This document shows positions 16,578 through 31,564 of a stretch of 64,000 nt of DNA, piece after piece. The DNA is from Pseudooceanicola lipolyticus. Its GTDB lineage: Bacteria > Pseudomonadota > Alphaproteobacteria > Rhodobacterales > Rhodobacteraceae. The translations under genes were made by a program, and so were the position numbers. Under the pieces are notes generated by a model that saw nothing but the letters and a program-made list of their open reading frames with translations, was not told the origin of the DNA and ran no database searches. Every line of letters begins with the position of its first letter. Within the stretch, counting starts at the first letter, position 1. Where the stretch lies: assembly GCF_002786325.1 (NCBI RefSeq), contig NZ_PGTB01000001.1, forward strand, positions 186,001 through 250,000, in the 5' to 3' direction.

Positions 16578-17249
16578 CTAAAGCCCGGCCGATGCGCCCA
16601 AGGCCATGACCGCAGCCGCAGCGACCGGATCGACGACGCGGATACCGATCTCTTGCTCAAGCGCCCTGCGGCGGGGCGAAAAGCCCGCGCAGCCCAATAC
16701 AATCGCGCCGGCACCCAGGTCGCGCAGTCGGGCGCCGACTTCCAGCGTCTGTTGAAACACCTCCTCGCTTTGGCCCGCGTCTTCGGCCGACACGTTGTCC
16801 AGCGGCAGTTCCGCAGCCATGCGCGCTTCCACTCCCATTTGGCGGATGCGCAGGCGATGCCGTGCAACCGAGGCCGGGCCGAGCGCGACGATGCCAAACA
16901 AATCCGCCTGTGCCATGGCGCTTAGAATGCCGGCTTCTTGAATACCGATGACGGGCTGGCGCACCAATGTCCGGCACAGATCAACGCCTGGATCGGAAAA
17001 ACAGGCAACCACGAAGGCCGACGCATCGGGGCGCGATTGCACAATGGCTGCCACGTTCAACGCGGCTTCGGCGCTGTCTTTCATGGTTGAAATGGTGGCG
17101 GGGCCATGCGCAATTCCGATGCACTCGAACTCCGGCCCATCCATGCATCGAAACGGCGCAACGCTGCGCGCGATTTCCTCGGTTACCTTCACCGAGGAGT
17201 TTGGGTTGATGATGACAATCGGCCCTGTGCGTGCCTTGCTATCGCTCAT
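16578..17249 (-). CDS. hyuA: Hydantoin racemase (Asp/Glu/hydantoin racemase family)
   Basis: 223 residues; interconverts D- and L-5-substituted hydantoins without cofactor. The N-terminus IVIINPNSSVKVTEEI is the family signature. The two catalytic cysteines are at Cys83 (VVACFSDPGVD) and Cys187 (VLGCAGFSP), the spacing expected for hydantoin racemases. It overlaps the hydantoinase stop by ATGA, which strongly supports the substrate assignment over aspartate or glutamate. It is the last gene of the operon. The symbol follows one published usage; hyu nomenclature differs between species. Confidence 0.9.
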   Translation of the reverse strand: MSDSKARTGPIVIINPNSSVKVTEEIARSVAPFRCMDGPEFECIGIAHGPATISTMKDSAEAALNVAAIVQSRPDASAFVVACFSDPGVDLCRTLVRQPVIGIQEAGILSAMAQADLFGIVALGPASVARHRLRIRQMGVEARMAAELPLDNVSAEDAGQSEEVFQQTLEVGARLRDLGAGAIVLGCAGFSPRRRALEQEIGIRVVDPVAAAAVMALGASAGL

Positions 17250-18694
17250 ATCTGGGCTCCGAAATTCTGCGCCGGGTCGCGCTCTTTGGCAAGGTAGCCG
17301 TCACCTAGCAACCTCATCGGCGCACGGGGAACGAATTTGCCTTGCCCTTCCTTGGCGATGAGGCGGCCTTTGTGTGTAATCAAAGCGCCACGGGTCATCA
17401 CCGTTTCCGGCAGGCCGGTCAATTCCAAGCCTTCGAACGGGGTGTAGTCCATGTTGTCATGCTGATCTTGCAGGCTCATGACCCGTGTCGCCTCCGGGTC
17501 CCAGATCGCAATATCGGCATCCATGCCTGGTGCGAGGCTGCCTTTGTCGGTCATTCCGAAGGTGCGCGCGGCATTGGTGGAAGACAGGCTGACGAATTGC
17601 TGCAGGCTGATCCGGCCCTTCACGACCCCTTCGGAGAACAGGTAGGGCAGCCGCGCGGCGATACCGGGCATGCCATTGCTGATCTGCGGGTAGGGAATAT
17701 CCCGGCCCTTGATGAATTTGCCGGTTTCGTCATAGCGATACGGCGCGTGATCCGAACTGACCGAGGTGAAAGTTCCGGATTTAACATGCTGCCACAGCGC
17801 CGCTTGCGTCGCTGCGTCCCTTAGCGGTGGCGAACAGACGAACTTCGCGCCCTCCATCCCCGGCCGGTCCAAATCATCGCGCGTGAAGGCCAGATATTGC
17901 GGGCAGGTTTCGGCAAAGAGCCGTGTTCCCGCGAGGATTTCGCGCTGAACAATCGCAGCGCCGCCCGCCGTGGACACGTGCACGATGAACAGGGGCGCAT
18001 CCACCAGTTTCGCCAACGAGATGGCACGGTTGATCGCCTCTTCCTCGGCAAGCTCGGGGCGGGAAATCGCATGGTATTTCGGCGCAACCAGCCCGGCCCG
18101 GGCAAGCCGGCCATTCATCCATTTCACCATGTCGTTGTTTTCGGCATGGACCATGGTGATCGCCCCATGATCGCGCGCAACACTCAGGATATCGAGCATA
18201 CCGCCGTCGCCGATGTTCATCATGTCATAGGTCATGAACACTTTGAACGAAGTGATCCCGCGTGCAAATGCGCGCGGCAACTGGTCCTGCAAAACCGCTT
18301 CGCTCGGGTCGGTGATAATCAGGTGGTAGCTGTAGTCGATCACCGAGCGCGCGGCGCGGGCGTCATAGGTGGCAATCACATCATCTACGGATTGCCCGCG
18401 ATGCTGCGCCGCGAAGGGAATGAACGACGAGTTTCCGCCGAAAGCGGCCGCTACCGAACCGGACAGGTAGTCATCCGCGCCCATCACACCCGAAGAGCTT
18501 TCCTGCGCGATATGGGCGTGGGCCTCGATTCCGCCCGGCATGACCAACCGGCCGCCAGCATCAATGCGCGCATCCCCGCCGCTCAGGTTCTCGGCAACCG
18601 CAACGATCCGGCCGTCGCGGATACCGATATCGCCCCTGGCAACGTCGCTGCTCGTGACCAGAGTGCCACCGTGAATCACCGTGTCGAATTGCAT
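17246..18694 (-). CDS. hydA: D-hydantoinase / dihydropyrimidinase
   Basis: 482 residues of the cyclic amidohydrolase family; opens 5-substituted hydantoins (or dihydropyrimidines) to N-carbamoyl amino acids. Metal ligands: His59 and His61 (GGIEAHAHI), carbamylated Lys151 (GITSFKVFMTYD), further His in HLIITDP and FIVHVSTAGG, and the Asp in SVSSDHAPY. The last motif, with DIAIWDP, is typical of dihydropyrimidinases. Neighbouring hydantoin racemase and D-carbamoylase genes favour a D-hydantoinase role in catabolism. Confidence 0.93.
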   Translation of the reverse strand: MQFDTVIHGGTLVTSSDVARGDIGIRDGRIVAVAENLSGGDARIDAGGRLVMPGGIEAHAHIAQESSSGVMGADDYLSGSVAAAFGGNSSFIPFAAQHRGQSVDDVIATYDARAARSVIDYSYHLIITDPSEAVLQDQLPRAFARGITSFKVFMTYDMMNIGDGGMLDILSVARDHGAITMVHAENNDMVKWMNGRLARAGLVAPKYHAISRPELAEEEAINRAISLAKLVDAPLFIVHVSTAGGAAIVQREILAGTRLFAETCPQYLAFTRDDLDRPGMEGAKFVCSPPLRDAATQAALWQHVKSGTFTSVSSDHAPYRYDETGKFIKGRDIPYPQISNGMPGIAARLPYLFSEGVVKGRISLQQFVSLSSTNAARTFGMTDKGSLAPGMDADIAIWDPEATRVMSLQDQHDNMDYTPFEGLELTGLPETVMTRGALITHKGRLIAKEGQGKFVPRAPMRLLGDGYLAKERDPAQNFGAQI

Positions 18695-18715: not shown

Positions 18716-20011
18716 TCAGTCTGTGTTGCGATTCCGGCGCAGGTCGCGGGCATCGAGATGGGCATACCATTTCGTCATCACGTTTGCGGCGCGATCCGAA
18801 AACGGTTTGAACGGAACCCGCTGGAAGGGCAGATCGTCAAACGCGGTGTCGCTATCGCGCTCTTTCAGGATCTTGCGCGCCAGTTTCATGCCGAAATACA
18901 CGCTGCGCGTCACGCCCGACCCGCAATAGCCCCCGGCCAGCCAAACGCCATCCACAAAGCCCAGATGGGGGCTGTGGTCGGGAGTATAGGCGACGTTGCC
19001 AGACCAGACATGGCTTAGGCGCACATCGCTTAGCTGTGGAAAAACCCGCGTAATGGACTTCGTGAAGGCCTTGCGTTGCGCCTCCAAGGCGCCTCCGGGG
19101 TTTCCGATCCGGCCACCAAAGATGAACCTGCGCCCGTCCGGAGTGGGGCGGAACCACATGAATACACGTCCAGACTCGCCGAACATGCGCTTTTGGGGCG
19201 TCAGGTTCTCCATCAATTGCGGCGACAGTTCCTCGCTGGCGACGGCGGCGGTACGGATCGACACGATACGCCGATGCAGCGCCGGGGTGCGCCCGTCCGA
19301 ATAGGCGTTTGTTGCGACCACGACCTCTTTCGCGGTGACCGTGCCTTGCGGCGTTTGCAACATGGTTGTCGCGCCTTCGCGGCGCATGGCGGACACCGGA
19401 CAATGCGGCACGATTTGCACCTCGGCGGCCCGCACGGCCTGTGCCAATTCAACCACCAGTTTGCGTGGGTGTATCCCGCCATCGCGCTGATAGACCGCGC
19501 CGCCATGGTAAAACGTGCTGCCGATCTCCCGATGCTGCTCTGCGCGCGGCAACATCGCCACTGGCAGCCCGAGATTGCGCGACAGCCAATCCGTTTCGCG
19601 CCCCATAGCATCGTAATCGGCCAGCGTGCGCGCGCCGCGAAACCGGCCCCGCATTTGCAGATCACACTCCAGCCCGTTCCCGGCGACAAATTCCTCGAAA
19701 TAATCAAGCGCATGAATACCTTCACGCATGATCGCCAATGTCTTGGCCTCGCCGTATCGTGCAATCAGGCCAGCTGATCCAAGCTTGTGAAAGCTGGGCC
19801 CGACCATGCCGCCATTGCGAGAGGAACACCCGGATCCGATACCGCCGGCATCGAACACGACAACGTGGCGGCCGGCCCGCGCAAGATGCAGCGCGACGCT
19901 CAGGCCTGTATACCCGGCTCCGATGATCGCGATGTCCACCCGATCAGGGGCTTTCTCTGGCCGGTTCTCGGCCGGATCGCTCGCTTGCCAATATATCTGC
20001 TCAGCAGACAA
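18716..20011 (-). CDS. FAD-dependent oxidoreductase, DAO family (D-amino acid/gamma-glutamylputrescine oxidase-like)
   Basis: 431 residues. The ADP-binding motif is VDIAIIGAGYTGLSVALHLA near residue 27, followed by GGIGSGCSSRNGGMVGPS, the site near which related PuuB/OrdL-type proteins hold FAD. A C-terminal WLAGGYCGSGVTRSVYFG is the second dinucleotide motif. It lies 4 bp after the DUF1028 gene and 21 bp before hydA. In this operon it could oxidise the D-amino acid released from hydantoins, or an amine imported by the Pot-type transporter. The substrate is inferred only. Confidence 0.88.
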   Translation of the reverse strand: MSAEQIYWQASDPAENRPEKAPDRVDIAIIGAGYTGLSVALHLARAGRHVVVFDAGGIGSGCSSRNGGMVGPSFHKLGSAGLIARYGEAKTLAIMREGIHALDYFEEFVAGNGLECDLQMRGRFRGARTLADYDAMGRETDWLSRNLGLPVAMLPRAEQHREIGSTFYHGGAVYQRDGGIHPRKLVVELAQAVRAAEVQIVPHCPVSAMRREGATTMLQTPQGTVTAKEVVVATNAYSDGRTPALHRRIVSIRTAAVASEELSPQLMENLTPQKRMFGESGRVFMWFRPTPDGRRFIFGGRIGNPGGALEAQRKAFTKSITRVFPQLSDVRLSHVWSGNVAYTPDHSPHLGFVDGVWLAGGYCGSGVTRSVYFGMKLARKILKERDSDTAFDDLPFQRVPFKPFSDRAANVMTKWYAHLDARDLRRNRNTD

Positions 20012-20015
20012 GGCC

Positions 20016-20777
20016 TTAGTCCCTTAACGTCCAACTGTCGCGGTGCTGCGCCGTGGGGAACCGCGCTTGCAAGCCCAACTCTTCGATCCGTGCGATGCTG
20101 GCCTCGAACAGGCTGCGCATGACCGGAATCCCTTCTGGTGCCAGGGCGACGTCGCGCAGTATTTCGGCCCGGCCGGCATAGGCATCGACCAGCGCGCGCA
20201 GGTCCTCGACCGCCGTGCCTTCGGACATGTCGATGCGAAGGTCCATCGCATCGATCCCGTGCTCGCCGGTCACGCGTACGGCCGCGGATTTCAACGGCCC
20301 GACGATCTCACCGCCCGCGTCGCGCCCGGCTTCCAGCGCCTGCATCAGTCGCTCGCCCAGCGGCAGGTTCGGGTCACGGGCAAAGGCCTCGGCCATATGC
20401 CGTGTCACGGTCTCGTTTGCCAGGATGTTGCCAAGAGCGAGGCAGTCCGTCTCGATGCTGTGGGTATAGATCGAATACATGCGCCGCCCGTGATAGGCCG
20501 ACGCGCGGCCCTTTGCATCAAGCGCTCCGATCTGGCGCCATTCGATATCCTTGGTCGAATTGCACACCTCGGTGACGGTGTCCTGGGCGTTTTTCCCCTC
20601 GGCGAGCAAAGAGATCCCAAGATCGCCCAAACGGCTATCGGTACGGTGTTGGGACAGCACAGCCCCCTTGCCGTGCAGCAAACGCACGCAGCGCCCGCCA
20701 ACGGCAAGATCAGATGTTGTAATTGCCGCGCCAAATGCGCCAGTGCGCACGCAACGACCTATGATCGAGAAAGTCAT
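20016..20777 (-). CDS. DUF1028 domain protein (Ntn-hydrolase-like), copy 1
   Basis: 253 residues of the DUF1028 family, whose fold is thought to resemble Ntn hydrolases but whose reaction is not established. The N-terminus MTFSIIGRCVRTGAFGAAIT begins immediately with the family strand. VGGRCVRLLHGKGAVLSQHRTDSRLG and AMDLRIDMSEGTAVEDL follow. The C-terminal about 40 residues have no counterpart in the second copy at 28192. It sits between an amidohydrolase and the FAD oxidoreductase in the hydantoin operon, so a step in hydantoin or ureido-compound breakdown is likely. Confidence 0.85.
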   Translation of the reverse strand: MTFSIIGRCVRTGAFGAAITTSDLAVGGRCVRLLHGKGAVLSQHRTDSRLGDLGISLLAEGKNAQDTVTEVCNSTKDIEWRQIGALDAKGRASAYHGRRMYSIYTHSIETDCLALGNILANETVTRHMAEAFARDPNLPLGERLMQALEAGRDAGGEIVGPLKSAAVRVTGEHGIDAMDLRIDMSEGTAVEDLRALVDAYAGRAEILRDVALAPEGIPVMRSLFEASIARIEELGLQARFPTAQHRDSWTLRD

Positions 20778-20795: not shown

Positions 20796-22163
20796 CTAGC
20801 GGGGATCGGTTGCCGGCAAAGGCACATCCCGTTCTTCGGCGCCAAAACGCTGCCACATGGCGTCGGTCGCTTGTTGGGCCTCGATGACCGCAGCGCGTTC
20901 GTCTATCGTGGTCAGAACGCCGTCCCGCATCAAAAACCGACCGTTTACCATCGTGTCCGTCACCGTGCCGGGGTGACCGTAATGCACAATGTTCGACACC
21001 AGCGAAACGCGAGGGTTCAAGGCGGGGGCATATAGGTTGAACATCGCCAGATCGGCCTTTTGTCCCACCGCGATGCTGCCAATGTCGGGCCGGTCCAGCG
21101 CCTTGGCGGCGTTCAGCGTGGCATAGTTGAACACCTGCCCCGGTGTCGGCGTGACCGATCGCTGATAGGCGCCGCGATGCAAGGTCAGCCCCAGTTTCAT
21201 CGCGTGGAACATGTCCTCGGTCATGTTGTCGGTGCCCAGAACGATCTTGACGCCGTGATCGAGAATGGCGCGCATTGGCAAGGGGTGCGGCCCCTTGGCC
21301 GACATCGACGACGGGCAATGCCCCAGCCACGTGCCGGTTTCCGCCAGTCGCGCCACATCGCTTTCGTTGCAGAACGTCCAATGCACCGCGATCAGGTCAT
21401 CGCCGAGGAAATCATTCTGGTCGAGATACTCGGTCGAGGTGCAGCCATGCAGCGCCTCGACCTGTTCTTTCTCGCTGATGATCTGGCTCAGATGCACGGT
21501 GCGGCGCAAACCGTGCTTGCGCGCCAGATCCTTCAATTGCCCGAGCATCCAGGGGCTGCAATTGTCGGGCGCATGGGCAGAGATCATGACGCGCACGCGG
21601 TCATCCTCGGCACCGTGAAACCGCTCGATCAGGGCTTCGGTGCGGTCAAGGAAGGTCTGCCCGAACGCCCGGTCAAAGCGATAGGTCCCGCTGCCCACCT
21701 CGGTTGTGACCGCATCGGCGCAGCTTTCCGCGAGCCAGAGCCGCAGGCCACTGTCGATCATCGCCGGCGCGTAATCTGCCACGTGGCGCAGCGGATCGAC
21801 CAGCGTCGTCGTGCCCGACCGAATTGCCTCGGCACAGGCCAGACGCGCAATTGCTGCGCGTTCACCCGGTTCCAGCAGGTAGGAGGCAGGTACCATATAC
21901 TGGTAAACAAGATTGCCTTCGATATCCTCGACCGTGCCACGCAGCACCAACAGAACCGAATGGGTATGGGCGTTGATCAGCCCTGGCGACACCAGCTTAT
22001 CGGACATATCGAGCGGTTCGAAGGCCTCGAACTCGCTGCCATCAAGCGTTGCAGGCAAAGCGACGATGCGGCTGCCCTCGATGGCGATATGGCCGCGCCG
22101 CACCTGGGGCAACCCGCTATCATGGCTGATATAGGTCGCGTTTTTCAGAAGCAGACGGGTCAT
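20796..22163 (-). CDS. Amidohydrolase family protein (cytosine/SAH deaminase, TrzN-like group)
   Basis: 455 residues; metal-dependent hydrolase or deaminase. Ligands are visible as LINAHTHSV (first metal site), SAHAPDNCSP, VHLSQIISEKEQVE, VHWTFCNESD and GTDNMTEDMFHAMK. This Asp-terminated pattern fits the subtype I deaminase/chlorohydrolase branch rather than hydantoinases. The C-terminus (GQKADLAMFNL) rebuilds the small beta-sandwich. It overlaps the permease stop by ATGA. It may deaminate or dechlorinate a heterocyclic substrate imported by the adjacent transporter. Confidence 0.88.
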   Translation of the reverse strand: MTRLLLKNATYISHDSGLPQVRRGHIAIEGSRIVALPATLDGSEFEAFEPLDMSDKLVSPGLINAHTHSVLLVLRGTVEDIEGNLVYQYMVPASYLLEPGERAAIARLACAEAIRSGTTTLVDPLRHVADYAPAMIDSGLRLWLAESCADAVTTEVGSGTYRFDRAFGQTFLDRTEALIERFHGAEDDRVRVMISAHAPDNCSPWMLGQLKDLARKHGLRRTVHLSQIISEKEQVEALHGCTSTEYLDQNDFLGDDLIAVHWTFCNESDVARLAETGTWLGHCPSSMSAKGPHPLPMRAILDHGVKIVLGTDNMTEDMFHAMKLGLTLHRGAYQRSVTPTPGQVFNYATLNAAKALDRPDIGSIAVGQKADLAMFNLYAPALNPRVSLVSNIVHYGHPGTVTDTMVNGRFLMRDGVLTTIDERAAVIEAQQATDAMWQRFGAEERDVPLPATDPR

Positions 22164-22936
22164 GATCTCCGCAGAACTCCAATGCCCGTGGCGATGAGCG
22201 TCAGGGCGATCAGCAGGGTCGCGACGGCGGCGATCGTGGGGTCGATATTGTCTTGAATGCCTTCCCAGATCATCTTGGGCAGGGTCTGCACATTGCGCAC
22301 GGTAATGAACAATACTCCCACAATCTCATCGAAGCTGACGATGAATGCAAAGATGAACCCCGAGGCGATACCTGGCCGGGCGGCAGGCACGACCACCGCC
22401 CAAACCGTTTGCATGACCGAGGCCCCAAGGCTCCGCGCGGCCCGTGGAAGGTTGCGGTCCAGATTGCTCAGCGCCGCAAAGACGGAGATCGACACATAGG
22501 GCAGCGCCAGCAACGTATGTGCCAGGATGACGCCGAAATGTGTATCGATCAGACCAAGCGTGACCCAAAACCGGTAGAACCCCAGCGACTGCACCACCGG
22601 CGGCACGAGGATTGGCGTGATCAGGATCCAGCGCGCGATCATCGCCGCCCGGTCCGAAAGGAACCAGCATCCGATGGCGAAGGCTGTGCCCAGAACCGAG
22701 GCGCAGGTCGCAACCACCAGCCCGACCCAGACACTTGTCCACGTAGCGCGCAACCATTCGGGATCGGAGAAGTAGTTGGTGTAGTGTTGAAGCGACAACG
22801 ACTCTTTCGGCAGGCCGATGTAGCTCGTATCAGTGAACGAAATCGGCAGTACGACGAGGATCGGCAAGACCAGAAACGCAATTACCAACCACGCGCCTGT
22901 CTGAAAGAAGATCCGGAAAGCAGAGCTTTGCATCAC
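22160..22936 (-). CDS. ABC transporter permease, PotC family
   Basis: 258 residues with six predicted membrane segments. The coupling loop LPRAARSLGASVMQTVWAVVVP is PotC-like, as is the GFIFAFIVSFDEI segment. It overlaps the PotB-type permease by ATGA and precedes the amidohydrolase. It is the second channel half of the polyamine-type importer. Confidence 0.92.
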   Translation of the reverse strand: MMQSSAFRIFFQTGAWLVIAFLVLPILVVLPISFTDTSYIGLPKESLSLQHYTNYFSDPEWLRATWTSVWVGLVVATCASVLGTAFAIGCWFLSDRAAMIARWILITPILVPPVVQSLGFYRFWVTLGLIDTHFGVILAHTLLALPYVSISVFAALSNLDRNLPRAARSLGASVMQTVWAVVVPAARPGIASGFIFAFIVSFDEIVGVLFITVRNVQTLPKMIWEGIQDNIDPTIAAVATLLIALTLIATGIGVLRRS

Positions 22937-23775
22937 TTACGCTCCAATAGGGTGGCTCGCAGGTTCACGAACCGTGCCGAGACCAGGAGGACGAGGGCGG
23001 TCGCGACGAGCAGTGCAACCGACAGGGCCGAGCCCAATCCCCAGTTCAGGAATTCCTGAATTTGGTAGGTGATGTATTCGGAAATCATCAGGACACGCCC
23101 ACCGCCCAGCAACGCGGGTGTCACGAAGAAGCCCAGTGAAAGCACGAAGACCAGCAGCGCGCCGGAGAGCACGCCAGGCAAGGTCTGGGGGAAATACACC
23201 TGCCGGAAACTGGTCCATTCGCTGGCCCCGAGGCTGCGCGCGGCTTGGACATAAATTCCCGAGATGCCCCGCATATTCGTCAGCATGGGCAACACTGCAA
23301 AAGGCAGCATCACGTGGATCATCGCGATCAGCACACCCAGTTCGTTGTGCATCAGGCGGAGCGGCCTTTCGATCAGTTCGGCATTGATCAGCGCGTCATT
23401 CACGAGACCCGAACGGCCGAGCAGGACGATCCAGCTGAACGACCGGATAAGCACCGAAACCCAGAACGGCAAGATCACCAGCGCCACCATAAGGGGGGTC
23501 AGGCGCGTGGCGAAATTGCTGATCGCATAGGCCACGATATAGCCCAGGATCAGGCACCCCAAGGTGGTAATGGCGGCGACGCGGAAGGTGATGACGAAAC
23601 TGGTCTTCACCGCGTTGGAACCAGCCATCTTGACGAAGTTGTCAACCCCGGCTTGCGGCTCGGTAAAGGCGATCTCCCAGATGCCCAGCACGGGCAGAAT
23701 GTAGAAGATCACCATGATCGACAATGCCGGCAGAACCAGCATCCAGTAGCTGGTCTTCTCGTTGACCCCTGGCAT
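22933..23775 (-). CDS. ABC transporter permease, PotB family
   Basis: 280 residues, membrane channel half. The N-terminus WMLVLPALSIMVIFYILPVLGIW is the first membrane helix. The coupling loop is VQAARSLGASEWTSFRQVYFPQTLPG, and the helix FVLSLGFFVTPALLGGGR is a PotB/AgaB-type signature. It is separated from the binding-protein gene by 74 bp that holds a strong hairpin, probably setting a lower expression level than the binding protein. Confidence 0.92.
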   Translation of the reverse strand: MPGVNEKTSYWMLVLPALSIMVIFYILPVLGIWEIAFTEPQAGVDNFVKMAGSNAVKTSFVITFRVAAITTLGCLILGYIVAYAISNFATRLTPLMVALVILPFWVSVLIRSFSWIVLLGRSGLVNDALINAELIERPLRLMHNELGVLIAMIHVMLPFAVLPMLTNMRGISGIYVQAARSLGASEWTSFRQVYFPQTLPGVLSGALLVFVLSLGFFVTPALLGGGRVLMISEYITYQIQEFLNWGLGSALSVALLVATALVLLVSARFVNLRATLLERK

Positions 23776-23849: not shown

Positions 23850-24983
23850 TCAGTTGATCAGCGCGTCCACGTACATTTCTTCGGCAGAAACTTGGTTCTT
23901 CGCGTACCATTCATCGTTGTAGATGATCTGCGTCGCCAGGTTCTCGGGGCTCGACGGATTATAAGGCGCGAGCTCGGCCGGAACCAACTCTGCCGCAGCC
24001 GGGTTGATCGGGCCGGAACCGATTTTTTCGAGCCATTCCACTTGCAGTTCCGGCTTCTGGCCGTGCGCGATGAACTTCATCACCTCGTCCTTACCCGCCG
24101 GGTTGCCCTTGGGCACGACCCAGATACCCGGTGCGATCACGCCGCCGTTGAAGCTGACATTGAAACTGCCGGGTTCCATCTGATCCTTCAGAAGGTGCGC
24201 ACGGGTCGACCAGATATTGCCAATCGCCACCTCTTCCTGAAGGAACAGGTTCTGGCTGTCGCTGCCCGATCCCCAGACGATGATGTTCTCGCGCAACTCG
24301 CGGAACTTGGCGATTGAGGCCTTGATGCCGTCTTCGGTGCTCAAAGCGTCATAGACTTCTGCCAGTGGCACGCCGAGGGCTTGGGTTGCGCTTTCAAGCT
24401 GACCGCGCACCGATTTACGGAAGGTCCGCATGCCCGGGAAATCCTTGACGTTCCAGACATCTTCCCACGTCTGCGGGATATTGCCGCCAAGCATCTTGGG
24501 GTTTGTGGCTAGCACGTAGGAATAGACGTAGTTGCCGACACCATTGTTATAGGCGGTGCCTTCCAGAACCTTGGATTTGTCGACGATGCTGTAATCGATC
24601 GCTTCGGTCATGCCCTGCTGTTCGAGGATGATCGCAGAGCCGGCGCCGCTGTCGCACAAATCCCAGACCACCGCGCCGCTTTCGACCATGGCGCGGATCT
24701 TGCCCGCCGACGGGCCGGAGCCGTCAACCGTCACCTTGATCCCGGTTTCGGCGGTATAGGTGTCGCACAGCACTTCCTGCAGAACGTCTTTGGCGGCTCC
24801 ACCCCAGTTCACGACGATGATTTCCGAGGTCGCGGCCATTGCGCGCTGGCCGAATGCGGGCAGAACGCCCAGAGCGCCCATCGCGGCGATGAAACCGCGC
24901 CGGGTCAGGCGGCCTTGCTTGTAACGCTCGACCGCAACTTCGGCGATATCGCGCTTGGCTTCAAAATCAGTGGTGTCAGTCAT
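23850..24983 (-). CDS. ABC transporter substrate-binding protein, polyamine/PotD-like family
   Basis: About 377 residues. The start at 24983 (MTDTTDFEAKRD) has AAGGAG seven bases upstream; a longer in-frame reading lacks support. The signal is a Tat type, with a 25-residue leader before LTRRGFIAAMGALGVLPAFG and cleavage near AMAA. The body shows IIVVNWGGAAKDVLQEVLCDTY, VVWDLCDSGAGSAI and PQTWEDVWNVKDFPGMR, as in PotD/PotF relatives. Ligand unknown; given the operon, hydantoins or ureido compounds are candidates. Confidence 0.92.
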   Translation of the reverse strand: MTDTTDFEAKRDIAEVAVERYKQGRLTRRGFIAAMGALGVLPAFGQRAMAATSEIIVVNWGGAAKDVLQEVLCDTYTAETGIKVTVDGSGPSAGKIRAMVESGAVVWDLCDSGAGSAIILEQQGMTEAIDYSIVDKSKVLEGTAYNNGVGNYVYSYVLATNPKMLGGNIPQTWEDVWNVKDFPGMRTFRKSVRGQLESATQALGVPLAEVYDALSTEDGIKASIAKFRELRENIIVWGSGSDSQNLFLQEEVAIGNIWSTRAHLLKDQMEPGSFNVSFNGGVIAPGIWVVPKGNPAGKDEVMKFIAHGQKPELQVEWLEKIGSGPINPAAAELVPAELAPYNPSSPENLATQIIYNDEWYAKNQVSAEEMYVDALIN

Positions 24984-25029
24984 GTACGTTCTCCTTGTCA
25001 TGGGGTGGGGTGACCTTTTCTTCTTCCGG

Positions 25030-26109
25030 TCACTCTTGGTTAAGCGGGGCCAGCACGACGGGCGCGTCTGCATCCCAGCCGATGCTGACCTCTAGTCCGG
25101 GGGTGGGGATGATGTCGGTTTTCCAAGTGGGGCGTGAGATCAAAAACTCTTCGCCACTCTTGCGCGTCACCATCACCTGGCAACGTTCGCCAAGATAGCT
25201 TACCTGCTTGACCGTCGCCGGAACGAACTCTTCGCCGGGCAAACCCAGGCGCAACCGCTCAGGTCGAAGCGCAAGGGTGATCGTCTCACCCTGACGGCAG
25301 GGCTCTTGCGTTGTCAGATCGAAAACCGCGCCCTCCGACTCGCATTGGCAGGAGGTGCCGCTTGCGGACAGGACAGCCGCTTCCAGAAAGTTGGACTTGC
25401 CCAGAAAGTCGGCCACAAACCGGTTGCGCGGCTGGTCATAGAGCGCATTGGGGCCGCCCTCCTGCTGGATCGCCCCATCTTTGAGGATGACGATCCGGTC
25501 AGACATGGACAGCGCCTCATCCTGGTCGTGGGTGACGTAAATGAAGGTCACGCCCAGTTTCTGATGCAGGTCTTTCAGCTCCCACTGCAAATCGGCGCGC
25601 AACTTCTTGTCGAGCGCCGACAAGGGTTCGTCCAGCAACAGAATTTGCGGGTCAAACGACATCGCCCGCGCCAGCGCGATGCGCTGCTGCTGTCCGCCGG
25701 ACAACTGGCTTGGCATCCGGTCGGCAAAGGCGCTCATTTGCACCATCTCCAGTGCCTCGCCGACGCGCTTCTTGATCTCGGCGGCAGGGCGTTTGCGAAT
25801 TTTGAGCGGGAAGCCGACATTCTCGCGCACGGTCATGGTGGGAAACAGCGCATAGCCCTGGAACACCATGCCGAAATCGCGATGCTCGGGCGGTTTGCCC
25901 GTGATGTCGGTGGAGCGCAGCGCCAGCCGTCCCTCATCCAGGGTAATAAAGCCCGCAATCGCACTCAGCAGCGTGGTCTTGCCCGAACCGGACGGCCCCA
26001 GAAGGGTCAGGAACTCGCCCTCGGCAACATCCAGATTCACCCCATCGAGGGCGTTGACGGAGCCATATCGCTTTACCGCGTTCTTGATGGAAAGGATCGG
26101 TTCATTCAT
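25030..26109 (-). CDS. ABC transporter ATP-binding protein, PotA family
   Basis: 359 residues. Walker A is GPSGSGKTTLL, the signature LSGGQQQRIALARAM, Walker B ILLLDEPLSALD, and the H-loop YVTHDQDEA. A TOBE-like C-terminal domain follows (LRPERLRLGLPGEEFVPATVK). It is the first gene of the hydantoin operon. The 120 bp upstream, extending into the lysR stop, hold a bipartite element shared with the carbamoylase promoter. Confidence 0.93.
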   Translation of the reverse strand: MNEPILSIKNAVKRYGSVNALDGVNLDVAEGEFLTLLGPSGSGKTTLLSAIAGFITLDEGRLALRSTDITGKPPEHRDFGMVFQGYALFPTMTVRENVGFPLKIRKRPAAEIKKRVGEALEMVQMSAFADRMPSQLSGGQQQRIALARAMSFDPQILLLDEPLSALDKKLRADLQWELKDLHQKLGVTFIYVTHDQDEALSMSDRIVILKDGAIQQEGGPNALYDQPRNRFVADFLGKSNFLEAAVLSASGTSCQCESEGAVFDLTTQEPCRQGETITLALRPERLRLGLPGEEFVPATVKQVSYLGERCQVMVTRKSGEEFLISRPTWKTDIIPTPGLEVSIGWDADAPVVLAPLNQE

Positions 26110-26195
26110 CAGACAGGATCACCCGCTTTGCTCTCGTCGGTGGCGGCGAAACTGCCGCTTGGCTCCGAGCAGGTGAGCATGGCGGGAGTACATAT

Positions 26196-26237
26196 TGAAA
26201 TAAAAAATACACCCTCGTCTATATCTTCAAATTATAG
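26196..26237 (-). promoter_or_regulatory. Predicted LysR operator/promoter of the hydantoin transport operon
   Basis: On the - strand the block reads CTATAA (26237-26232), 23 nt, then ATTTTTTATTTCA (26208-26196). The same two words with the same 23-nt gap lie at 27163-27204 on the + strand before the carbamoylase gene. Within the left half, ATAA-N7-ATAT (26235-26221) gives a T-N11-A LysR box. The left end overlaps the lysR stop codon. The ATG of the potA-type gene is 87 nt beyond the right half. The sequence identity is seen directly; binding by the LysR protein is inferred. Confidence 0.65.
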
Positions 26238-27161
26238 CCTGGCCGCGTCCACGGCCTCTCCGGAGCCCGACTCATCATGCGACTTCAGGTAGTCCGCCAG
26301 GAAATGCTGAAACTGCATTGTCAGGTTGGTGGTGGGGAACATGTTCGACGTAAGTCCATATAATTTCAAAGGCAATGACGGTTTCGTCGGCCGTACGGCT
26401 ATGTCGCCCCCGTTGGATCCGATCACCGCAAAGCTATCAACCAGGGCGACCCCCAACCCATTCCGCACCATCTCCAATGCGGTTGCAGTGTGGCGCACTT
26501 CGCAGAAATAACGCCGCTCCAATCCGCGCTCGGAAAACATCGCATCGATCATCTGCCCTAATGGTGTGCGGGATGCGTAAGAAATGTGCGAAACGTGATT
26601 GAGGCTCGAGATCGAAACAACCTCCTGCAACGCCAAGACATGATCGGCCGAGCAGACACACATAAGCTGCCCGTTGGCGATTTCCCGAACAGAAACAGCG
26701 GAATGGCGCGGCGGCGTGATCGAAAGCCCCAAGTCGACCCGGCCGCTGCCCAGCTTGCGGATGATCTCGTCCTGGCTGCCCAGTTCGATTGAAAGCTGTA
26801 GCTTCGGGCGGGCCTTGATGAATTGTCCCAGAACCCGCGGCAGAACCCCATGTCCAACCGATGGAGTGGCGATGATGCTCAGCCGTCCAATCGTGCCACC
26901 ACGCAATTCGTCGATGATGTTGGCAATCCGGTTTTGCTGCATAAACAAGTGCTGCGCCTCCTGCGCAATATGCAGCGCCTCCTTCGTCGGTGTCAGACGG
27001 CCGTGCTCGCGCATGAACAACGGGAAGCCGATCAGATCTTCAGTATGTCGGATCATGTTGCTGATCGCCGGCTGACTGACAGAGAGCAATTCAGCGGCGC
27101 GGGCAGTGGTTCCCACCTCGATCACGGTGGACAGTACTTCGAGTTGGCGCGCGCTGATCAT
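26232..27161 (-). CDS. LysR-family transcriptional regulator of the hydantoin locus
   Basis: About 309 residues. The start at 27161 (MISARQLEVLSTVIEVG) places the helix-turn-helix correctly (TARAAELLSVSQPAISNMIRHTE). The upstream in-frame extension lies in the promoter. The substrate-binding domain follows with LSIIATPSVGHGVLPRVLG and LGLSITPPRH. It is encoded between the two hydantoin transcription units and divergent from the carbamoylase, the classic LysR arrangement. It probably responds to a hydantoin or N-carbamoyl amino acid. Confidence 0.92.
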   Translation of the reverse strand: MISARQLEVLSTVIEVGTTARAAELLSVSQPAISNMIRHTEDLIGFPLFMREHGRLTPTKEALHIAQEAQHLFMQQNRIANIIDELRGGTIGRLSIIATPSVGHGVLPRVLGQFIKARPKLQLSIELGSQDEIIRKLGSGRVDLGLSITPPRHSAVSVREIANGQLMCVCSADHVLALQEVVSISSLNHVSHISYASRTPLGQMIDAMFSERGLERRYFCEVRHTATALEMVRNGLGVALVDSFAVIGSNGGDIAVRPTKPSLPLKLYGLTSNMFPTTNLTMQFQHFLADYLKSHDESGSGEAVDAARL

Positions 27162-27162
27162 T

Positions 27163-27204
27163 CTATAACTCCCGATTATTCCAGTAGGCCCATTTTTTAT
27201 TTCA
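27163..27204 (+). promoter_or_regulatory. Predicted LysR operator/promoter of the carbamoylase unit
   Basis: CTATAA (27163-27168), 23 nt, then ATTTTTTATTTCA (27192-27204), identical in both words and spacing to the element before the potA-type gene. ATAA-N7-TTAT (27165-27179) is a dyad with T-N11-A form. Its centre is about 26 bp from the centre of the second word, similar to the recognition and activation sites of LysR promoters. It lies 2 bp upstream of the lysR start and 56 bp upstream of the carbamoylase ATG, so it could serve both genes. Confidence 0.65.
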
Positions 27205-27259
27205 TACTGATGCACTCACTGGCTAGCAAGGAGGCAACGCACTAGTTCTGGAGGGTCGA

Positions 27260-28195
27260 ATGAGCAGGAAAGAGGTGTTTGCCGTTGCGCAAATGGGGCC
27301 GGTACATCTGGCCGATACGCGGCAGCAGGTTGTCAGCCGCCTGATCGAAATGCTGCGTGAGGCACATGCCAGAGGCGCTGGCTGGGTCACCTTTCCGGAA
27401 CTGGCGCTGACCACGTTTTTCCCCCGCTATGTCTATGACTCCCCAGAAGAATATGATGTGTTCTTCGAAACAGGTCTGCCCTCTCCCGCGATGGTGCCGC
27501 TGTTTGAAACGGCCAAGGATCTCGGCGTTGGCTTTTACCTCGGCTATGCGGAAAAGATCACCGAAGACGGCGTAACCCACCGCTTCAATACCTCGGTTTT
27601 GGTCGGTCCAGATGGCAGCATCCTGGGCAAATATCGCAAAATCCATTTGCCTGGCACCAAAGACCCGATTGGGGATCTGGAATTCGAACATCTCGAAAAG
27701 CGCTATTTCGAAGTCGGCGATTTAGGGTTTCCCACCTTCGCCACGCCCTCGGGGCGATTTGGCATGTGCATCTGCAACGACCGACGTTGGCCGGAAACCT
27801 TCCGCGTTATGGCGCTGCGCGGGGCGGAGGTGTTTATGCTCGGCTACAACACTCCGACGCGGAACATCCACCACCCCGAACCGGCCCATCTGCGCGACTT
27901 CCACAACCGGCTCAGCCTGGAATCCGCCGCCTATCAAAACGGCGCCTGGGTCATGGCCGCCGCGAAATGCGGCGCAGAAGACGGCTTTGCGATGATCGGC
28001 GGGTCTGCCATCATCGCCCCGACCGGTGAAACCGTGGCGCGCGCGGCTTCCGAGGATGACGAGGTCATCACCCACAATTGCGATTTGGACTTTGGCGCCT
28101 ATATCCGCCGGTCGGTCTTCGACTTTGCCCGCCACCGCCGAATCGAACATTACGGCCCGATTACTGAACAAACCGGCGTGGAGATTCCCTCGTGA
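27260..28195 (+). CDS. N-carbamoyl-D-amino acid hydrolase (D-carbamoylase)
   Basis: 311 residues of the carbon-nitrogen hydrolase (nitrilase) superfamily; releases a D-amino acid, CO2 and ammonia from N-carbamoyl-D-amino acids. The triad is at canonical positions: Glu47 (WVTFPELALTTFF), Lys127 (GKYRKIHLPG) and Cys172 (MCICNDRRWPE). The segment YNTPTRN and the Arg-rich DRRWPET are typical of D-carbamoylases. RBS GGAGGG precedes the ATG. It is divergent from lysR and couples by ATGA to a DUF1028 gene. It completes the racemase/hydantoinase pathway. Confidence 0.94.
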   Translation: MSRKEVFAVAQMGPVHLADTRQQVVSRLIEMLREAHARGAGWVTFPELALTTFFPRYVYDSPEEYDVFFETGLPSPAMVPLFETAKDLGVGFYLGYAEKITEDGVTHRFNTSVLVGPDGSILGKYRKIHLPGTKDPIGDLEFEHLEKRYFEVGDLGFPTFATPSGRFGMCICNDRRWPETFRVMALRGAEVFMLGYNTPTRNIHHPEPAHLRDFHNRLSLESAAYQNGAWVMAAAKCGAEDGFAMIGGSAIIAPTGETVARAASEDDEVITHNCDLDFGAYIRRSVFDFARHRRIEHYGPITEQTGVEIPS

Positions 28196-28860
28196 CCTTT
28201 TCACTCGCGGGACGCGATCCGCAAACTCGAGAAATCGGGTTTGCGGTCGCGACTTCTTCGGTCTGCGTCGGTGGACGGGTTGGCGCGCTCACCGAAGGCT
28301 GCGTTGTGTTTTCACAATGCCGAACCGATCCGCGTCTGCACCGCCCCGGACTGCGTTGTTGGGAAGAAAGCCAGGACGCGACGGCTGCGATGGAAGCGAT
28401 GCAGCAGGCTGCAACCGCCCTGCATTGGCGTCAACTCGGTGTCTTCCCCGCCACCGGTGCAGGTTTGCACTTCACCGGCAGCTCATGTCTCGGCGTGGCG
28501 GGCGGTTTAATCGGCGAGAACAGCCTGGCGTTGGGAAATTTTCTGGGCTCGGAAGATGTGTTGCCCGCGATGGTCAACGGTTTCGAGACTGCCAAAGGCA
28601 GCCTTGCAAATCGGCTCGTCGCAGGGATGCTGGCCGGGCAAGCCGCAGGCGGGGAGCGCGATCCACTACAATCGGCATCCATGGCGGTTCTTGGCGATGC
28701 GGGTCTGAAGGATGTCGATCTGCGGATCGATGATTCCAGCACCCCTTTGGAAGATCTGAGCCGCATGCTGGCAGAATGGCTCCCAAAGGCCGCTGCGTAC
28801 CGCGTGCGCGCGCTCGATCCCGACGCGGCACCCTCTTCCTCCAGCATCGAACACGGCTGA
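28192..28860 (+). CDS. DUF1028 domain protein, copy 2
   Basis: 222 residues, paralogous to the protein encoded at 20016-20777. Shared blocks are MTFSLAGRDPQTREIGFAVAT, VGGRVGALTEGCVVFSQCRTD, the middle GLIGENSLALGNFL (compare DCLALGNILAN) and KDVDLRIDDSSTPLEDL. It lacks about 30 C-terminal residues of copy 1. It overlaps the D-carbamoylase stop by ATGA. Having one DUF1028 gene in each hydantoin transcription unit argues that the two form a heteromer or catalyse related steps. Confidence 0.85.
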   Translation: MTFSLAGRDPQTREIGFAVATSSVCVGGRVGALTEGCVVFSQCRTDPRLHRPGLRCWEESQDATAAMEAMQQAATALHWRQLGVFPATGAGLHFTGSSCLGVAGGLIGENSLALGNFLGSEDVLPAMVNGFETAKGSLANRLVAGMLAGQAAGGERDPLQSASMAVLGDAGLKDVDLRIDDSSTPLEDLSRMLAEWLPKAAAYRVRALDPDAAPSSSSIEHG

Positions 28861-31422: not shown

Positions 31423-31551
31423 TTGTTTTCTTGGCCCTGCGAAAGCGGAGGCATTGTGCCGTGTCACTTTTCTCAGCATTTCGCGCGAAGCTTGGACGCG
31501 TCAAGTCAATATGTATTTAAATATGAAAAAAGCTCCAATATTGCTTGACTT

Positions 31552-31564
31552 GCATATCTTATGC
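31552..31564 (+). promoter_or_regulatory. Dyad in the divergent promoter of the second Dpp operon
   Basis: GCATA-TCT-TATGC, a perfect 5-bp dyad with T-N11-A-like spacing, lies in an AT-rich stretch (about 31500-31565) between the aminotransferase and the Dpp binding-protein gene. It is a candidate operator for the LysR protein encoded at the far end of the Dpp operon. Only one copy is seen, so the assignment is weak. Confidence 0.35.

Follow-up and report, generated by a model that had tools for sequence, protein, structure and literature searches.

The locus studied here raises the question of why two divergent gene runs of a hydantoin-type pathway in Pseudooceanicola lipolyticus, which start on either side of a LysR-type regulator gene, carry the same two-part DNA element in front of them, and whether the regulator encoded between them is the protein that reads it. 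The window, by which we mean the whole stretch of 64,000 nucleotides that was analysed, holds the following genes at this place:

26232 to 27161, minus strand: LysR-type transcriptional regulator (PF00126 and PF03466 above cut-off)
27260 to 28195, plus strand: carbon-nitrogen hydrolase, closest to N-carbamoyl-D-amino acid amidohydrolases (PF00795; PDB 1fo6, E 5e-109)
28192 to 28860, plus strand: DUF1028 protein, overlapping the carbamoylase stop (PF06267)
25030 to 26109, minus strand: PotA-type ABC transporter ATPase, first gene of the left run (TIGR01187, 369 bits, cut-off 355.6)
23850 to 25073, minus strand: extracellular solute-binding protein, start codon unsure (PF13416)
22933 to 23775, minus strand: ABC permease (PF00528)
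22160 to 22936, minus strand: ABC permease (PF00528)
20796 to 22163, minus strand: amidohydrolase, TRZ/ATZ-like (PF01979)
20016 to 20777, minus strand: second DUF1028 protein (PF06267)
18716 to 20011, minus strand: FAD-dependent oxidoreductase, DAO family (PF01266)
17246 to 18694, minus strand: D-hydantoinase/dihydropyrimidinase (TIGR02033, 497 bits, cut-off 393; NF009941, 730 bits, cut-off 647)

The pathway is labelled hydantoin-type because the D-hydantoinase lies above two NCBIfam cut-offs and the carbamoylase is closest to solved D-carbamoylases. The best PDB matches of the latter (27260 to 28195) were D-carbamoylases, and no NCBIfam model stood above its cut-off among the matches listed, as was also the case for the amidohydrolase (20796 to 22163). 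From the gene set, creatinine or N-methylhydantoin may be considered as the substrate; among the matches listed, no paper on these compounds dealt with a LysR regulator. It was also observed that the two DUF1028 proteins (28192 to 28860 and 20016 to 20777) fall one in each gene run.

Two copies of one element around the LysR gene

An earlier note on this DNA had described CTATAA followed, after 23 nucleotides, by ATTTTTTATTTCA in front of both the potA-type and the carbamoylase gene. Both words, the spacing, the strands and the coordinates (26237 to 26196, minus strand, and 27163 to 27204, plus strand) proved exact. The LysR gene was said to lie exactly between the copies, and it does, because the left CTATAA consists of the final sense codon and the stop of the LysR reading frame (26232 to 27161, minus strand, ATG at 27161), and the right CTATAA lies beyond its ATG, between this ATG and a Shine-Dalgarno-like GGGAG. 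One base separates the right element from the LysR start codon, and the right dyad covers the Shine-Dalgarno-like region. Both elements point outward, to the potA-type gene (ATG 26109) and to the carbamoylase gene (ATG 27260), and consist of these parts:

26196 to 26237, minus strand: left (D) copy of the 42-bp element, upstream of the potA-type gene, overlapping the last two LysR codons
26221 to 26235, minus strand: left dyad ATAATTTGAAGATAT, ATAA-N7-ATAT with T-N11-A, proposed primary LysR site
26196 to 26208, minus strand: left distal word ATTTTTTATTTCA, proposed secondary (activation) site
27163 to 27204, plus strand: right (U) copy of the 42-bp element, upstream of the carbamoylase gene
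27165 to 27179, plus strand: right dyad ATAACTCCCGATTAT, ATAA-N7-TTAT with T-N11-A, proposed primary LysR site
27192 to 27204, plus strand: right distal word ATTTTTTATTTCA, proposed secondary (activation) site
27219 to 27228, plus strand: conserved block, CTGGCTAGCA in the window and TGTCTAGC in many relatives, U columns 57 to 64
26171 to 26181, minus strand: conserved block CATGCTCACCT, D columns 56 to 66 from the element start, partly conserved

No third copy was found in the window at up to three mismatches, and none in the genome beyond these two at up to two; at up to three, the whole genome gave one extra match, with three mismatches, on another contig. The PWM scan also detected no further copies in the window, the next best position scoring 0.1. 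This score belongs to the AT-rich intergenic stretch at 31500 to 31560, before a family-5 solute-binding protein gene, which is not a copy.

With reference to the window alone, chance might have placed shared words in two AT-rich intergenic spots. As controls, 20 sequences were generated from a first-order Markov model of the window, and 13-mers that recur with a 6-mer at the same distance upstream were counted. The controls gave 0 to 10 such repeats, about four on average, and the real window 90, overlapping words being counted apart. As the controls give similar coincidences, the coincidence inside the window was dropped as proof; being weak evidence by itself, it made a comparison across genomes necessary. 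A terminator or an ordinary sigma-70 promoter behind the words was also considered and rejected, the one promoter-like and the one terminator-like match both lying inside LysR, away from the words, and at shuffle level.

Conservation of the element and its place beside pathway genes

Of the 395 family genomes, 12 have a match to the LysR protein at E 1e-50 or better, and a scan of contigs yielded 70 LysR relatives, of which 33 (L016 to L048) are 56 to 90% identical. These 33 loci, the window and L008, L011 and L014 make up the 37 loci compared; both LysR flanks were scored at all of them, and the PWM was trained on these flanks. The element was detected without gaps in 68 of the 74 flanks (36/37 on the 5' side and 32/37 on the 3' side), counts to be read with the loci being related by descent and some of them nearly duplicates (L022/L023 and L027/L028). 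All six misses occur where the usual target gene does not adjoin LysR: the L030 5' flank has no carbamoylase upstream, and in the 3' flanks of L032, L044, L045, L046 and L047 the transporter operon is turned round. The earlier note had said that absence of the words from loci with the same gene order would refute it. Its reading came through this check, both copies being present in all 31 loci in which LysR stands between carbamoylase or DUF1028 on one side and potA on the other. Here the element copies scored at least 22.5 and everything else at most 12.2, and a PWM made without the window's own sites gave them 50.9 and 48.1, with the next best window position at 0.0. The right-hand DUF1028 gene is present at 30 of the 37 loci, some loci being incomplete.

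The 68 sites from the 37 loci give the 42-bp consensus [AT]ATAAY-N6-TTAT-N17-T[AT]ATTTC. Columns 2 to 5 (ATAA) are kept in 66 to 68 of the 68 sites and columns 14 to 16 (TAT) in all 68, column 13 being T in 60; T34, A36, T37, T38 and T39 each occur in 67 or 68 sites, column 40 is C in 59, and columns 30 to 33 are A/T-degenerate. T3 and A15, found in every site, form an invariant T-N11-A, as in LysR-type operators, and the distal word lacks this symmetry. The distance from the right half of the dyad to the distal T[AT]AT is 21 bp, equal to two helical turns, and the mean information content is 1.0 bit per column inside the element versus 0.18 to 0.40 in the flanks. With regard to the claim that the words themselves are conserved, the T-N11-A dyad is kept (68/68), but CTATAA is not the unit; what is conserved is ATAA-N7-TTAT together with T[AT]ATTTC. 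Some copies deviate: the L032 5' copy has one extra base between the two parts, the 3' copies of L027 and L028 (ATTATTTTC) fit the consensus loosely, and the 3' copy at L030, next to LysR, departs from the pattern at more than two positions and scores 34.2 with the PWM. The sole pattern match at up to two mismatches in the genome of L030 (G409), in an AT-rich stretch, scored 14.7 and was taken as chance.

These columns bear on a reading in which LysR would bind the dyad alone and the T-rich distal word, needed by both promoters, would serve them as an UP element or A-tract, either read by the polymerase or acting by way of DNA bending. The A/T degeneracy of columns 30 to 33 and the position of the word, where the promoter should begin, agree with it. 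However, a single base at columns 34 and 36 to 39 in 67 or 68 of 68 sites, with C at column 40 in 59, is very specific for an UP element, and a sister LysR clade, described below, has an ATTCGA ending at the same spacing, so that we hold this reading to be unlikely.

The place of the element relative to LysR varies. The LysR stop codon falls inside the dyad in 14 of the 32 D flanks, as in the window, and in the remaining 18 the element begins somewhere between 23 bases before the stop and 12 bases after it; because of this variation (-23 to +12), the element is not explained by coding constraint. At the 36 U sites, it starts from 2 bases inside the aligned LysR start codon to 8 beyond. Recent duplication, which the earlier note had discounted, is indeed not the cause of the shared words, as identity at the 23 variable columns is hardly higher between the copies within a genome (0.396, 31 loci) than between genomes (0.365, 930 pairs).

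Copies away from LysR, which were not used to build the PWM, also occur. The pattern ATAAY-N6-TTAT-N16-TTWATTTC, searched in 34 genomes with up to two mismatches, gave 81 matches, compared with 8 when the pattern was reversed. Each of the five genomes in which the transporter operon is turned round has a second copy, with zero mismatches, upstream of potA at its other place (L140, L141, L143, L144 and L145), with 114 to 155 bp from element start to potA match. Further copies precede a hydantoinase gene in two Rhodovibrionaceae assemblies (scores 24.3 and 18.5), and one of these two (L045) has a copy before a DUF1028 gene 2.7 kb from LysR (score 38.8), while the copy at its LysR start is kept though no pathway gene directly follows. 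Aliishimia ponticola has an extra locus on a separate contig (L146, 1 to 6353) with its own copy at 307 to 348 (score 47.8). This locus is apparently reduced, consisting of potA, a binding protein, a permease match (first 53 residues only) and then a hydantoinase.

Since relatives keep the element beside the pathway genes even where these lie elsewhere, it is very probably the landing site of the regulator. Conservation in 68 of 74 flanks and a copy before potA in 5/5 turned-round operons also leave practically no probability to chance, which the roughly four similar coincidences per Markov control had allowed.

Co-occurrence with this LysR and the sister clade

Among the 395 family genomes, the exact pattern was found in 11 of the 12 with this LysR versus 1 of the 383 without it (Fisher p 1.8e-19, p values being nominal because the loci are related by descent). 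The informative part is the near absence in genomes lacking the regulator, as the pattern drew on sites that came partly from the 12. At up to one mismatch the figures are 11/12 and 11/383, the latter close to the reversed-pattern control (17/395 genomes). The twelfth genome with this LysR (G318) has no exact match, and its positions match L036, whose two copies have two mismatches. The sole exact match without this LysR (G009, L160), counted against specificity, lies beside an unrelated LysR-like reading frame; the reading frame on its other side we tentatively take, from its motifs, to be a Rieske-type oxygenase. This match may have arisen by chance or may serve another LysR with a site of this kind.

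The carbamoylase search gave matches in 52 genomes. Close orthologues (81 to 100%) had the element at the locus in 12 of 12 cases, and paralogues elsewhere in none of the 18 loci read (of 54 paralogue matches), no score exceeding 15.9. Just outside the window, on contig C111 of the same genome (G000), lie another carbamoylase paralogue, 51% identical, and a LysR gene that is more distantly related (168446 to 169363 and 173428 to 174288), about 12 to 18 kb left of the window start (C111:186001), and no element was found in the flanks of that LysR gene. That another pathway regulator binds the element, with LysR acting elsewhere, is very improbable, as the exact pattern is almost absent from genomes without this LysR, the dyad has the form of a T-N11-A box, and carbamoylase paralogues away from this LysR are without the element (0/18).

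Twelve LysR loci (L049 to L060), 30 to 36% identical to the window LysR, were treated separately. In L049 to L053 the LysR gene is bracketed by two elements of unchanged spacing, their distal word ending in ATTCGA instead of ATTTCA (AATCGA in the L052 5' copy) and the right half of the dyad being degenerate on the 5' side. L049 to L051 have a carbamoylase homologue (52 to 53%) upstream of LysR, as in the window clade. The LysR proteins of L049 to L053 and L055 form a supported clade (100/100) separate from the 37 window-type proteins (100/100), with L055 as a long branch in the tree. No bracketing pair of elements was found at L055 or L056; L054 has loose variants on both sides, L057 to L059 have a copy on the 5' side whose word resembles TTTTTATAGCC, and the copy of L060 is weak and lies further upstream. 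Some more distant LysR genes (for example L214, L215, L220 and L224) have a similar 5' dyad, varied in its right half, with AATTCGATTTGAC or a close variant, the word of L220 reading AATGAATTTGAC. On these comparisons, the distribution suggests that the two-part operator arose before the window clade did.

We tentatively consider an address code, possible although doubtful, in which the dyad would be shared and a clade-specific distal word (ATTTCA or ATTCGA) would be read base by base by the second dimer, thereby choosing the paralogue that fires. If this is true, the secondary site, usually thought degenerate, would be the specificity determinant. The recognition-helix stretch SQPA[IV]SNM is common to both LysR clades, an agreement that is partly built in because it was one of the two scan patterns that found the relatives. 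Against a strict code, the hydantoinase promoters of the two Rhodovibrionaceae assemblies (L141, 5426 to 5467, and L143, 1863 to 1904) combine the dyad with a distal word ending in TATTCGA, although the LysR proteins found in these assemblies are window-type or more distant and none is clearly of the sister clade.

Proposed regulation and comparison with known systems

We consider it likely, with good confidence, that each copy is an operator-promoter module of the LysR encoded between them, one serving the carbamoylase/DUF1028 operon and the other the transporter/hydantoinase operon; perhaps the operators serve LysR itself too. The distal word's want of T-N11-A symmetry and the deviating copies of L032, L027 and L028 count against it. 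The modules themselves, their spacing and conservation, their co-occurrence with this LysR and their position before the same targets in differing arrangements are observations; we infer a mechanism that covers binding, tetramer geometry, activation, self-repression, inducer and operon extent. One LysR dimer would bind the T-N11-A dyad ATAA-N7-TTAT as the primary site, and the second dimer of the same tetramer would read the distal T[AT]ATTTC word, 21 bp past the right half of the dyad. This word would adjoin or overlie the -35 region, and RNA polymerase would be recruited when a pathway compound is bound, a hydantoin or N-carbamoyl amino acid being our first guess for the inducer. The right module would drive carbamoylase-DUF1028, and the left module the run of transporter, amidohydrolase, DUF1028, oxidoreductase and hydantoinase genes. 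As the right dyad lies directly against the start codon of LysR, binding there should hold LysR itself down. L045, which keeps the element at the LysR start without a directly following pathway gene, counts for such self-regulation, and L030, which keeps LysR without an element at its start, counts against it.

Downstream of the element, conserved blocks near column 45 and at columns 57 to 66 probably belong to the core promoters, the latter block reading TGTCTAGC on the carbamoylase side and ATGnTC...CT on the potA side. The right-side block (27219 to 27228) may be the -10 region of the carbamoylase promoter or an other-strand part of the LysR promoter, and the left-side block (26171 to 26181) may be the -10 region of the potA promoter. 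If the blocks at columns 57 to 66 are -10 regions, the dyad would be centred at roughly -60 to -65 relative to the start of the target. A sigma-70 consensus scan found no sigma-70-like promoter at either element, which fits, as weak evidence, activator-dependent promoters. According to the excerpt of PMC4834489, LysR-type proteins have a T-N11-A primary site near -65 and a secondary site that reaches past -35 and is called non-conserved, and most of them repress themselves and activate a divergent target.

The bracketing itself might be functional if the two operators work chiefly as a pair, joined by a DNA loop with the LysR gene inside it. Such a loop has a parallel in the LysR-type ThnR, which loops between its sites in the part of PMC4834489 that deals with them, and in the 31 loci the centre-to-centre distance is held at 917 to 944 bp with some helical coherence (R 0.38 at 10.5 bp and 0.43 at 10.0). 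However, this narrow spacing counts against the loop because the length of the LysR gene sets it, and five genomes have the two copies kilobases apart. Helical phasing was rejected as support, as unrelated periods score equal or higher (0.48 at 4.55). A loop has little probability.

The kind of system is known; its new points are the regulon itself, the bracketing of the regulator gene by operators, and a secondary site that is conserved and clade-linked. The last of these, judged by sequence comparison, is the most interesting feature of the putative operator, being unusually conserved. The proposal offers a testable regulon (regulator, operator and target operons) for a hydantoin-type pathway with two DUF1028 proteins in alphaproteobacteria. 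Its operator can be used to find more pathway genes and already points to the second transporter-hydantoinase locus in Aliishimia. The clade-linked secondary site would be a clean system for studying how a LysR tetramer reads a second site, a question that degenerate sequences usually obscure. Among the matches listed, which comprised titles or abstract openings with subscription journals thinly covered, no paper dealt with a LysR regulator of a hydantoin cluster of this sort.

As in hydantoin utilisation clusters with a D-hydantoinase and a D-carbamoylase, a D-hydantoinase and a D-carbamoylase-like gene are both present here; the window adds a PotABCD-like transporter, two DUF1028 proteins, a TRZ/ATZ-like amidohydrolase and a DAO-type oxidoreductase. 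With the LysR-type operators outlined in the excerpt of PMC4834489, the window shares the T-N11-A dyad, the divergent target gene and a site at the regulator's own start, and likewise has a second element, a putative secondary site, between the dyad and the presumed promoter. The secondary contacts are termed non-conserved in that excerpt, whereas the word hardly varies among the 68 copies of the window clade and takes a different form in the sister LysR clade. Compared with the operators outlined there, the window also has a second full operator at the 3' end of the regulator, for the transporter operon. The ThnR tetralin regulon, as far as the same excerpt of PMC4834489 presents it, is alike in that one LysR-type protein acts on several promoters sharing a primary site. 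ThnR differs, in that account, by its need for ThnY and by activating its own gene, where the LysR of the window is proposed to repress itself. The two ThnR promoters studied are also divergent and close to each other, whereas the two of the window lie at opposite ends of the regulator gene.
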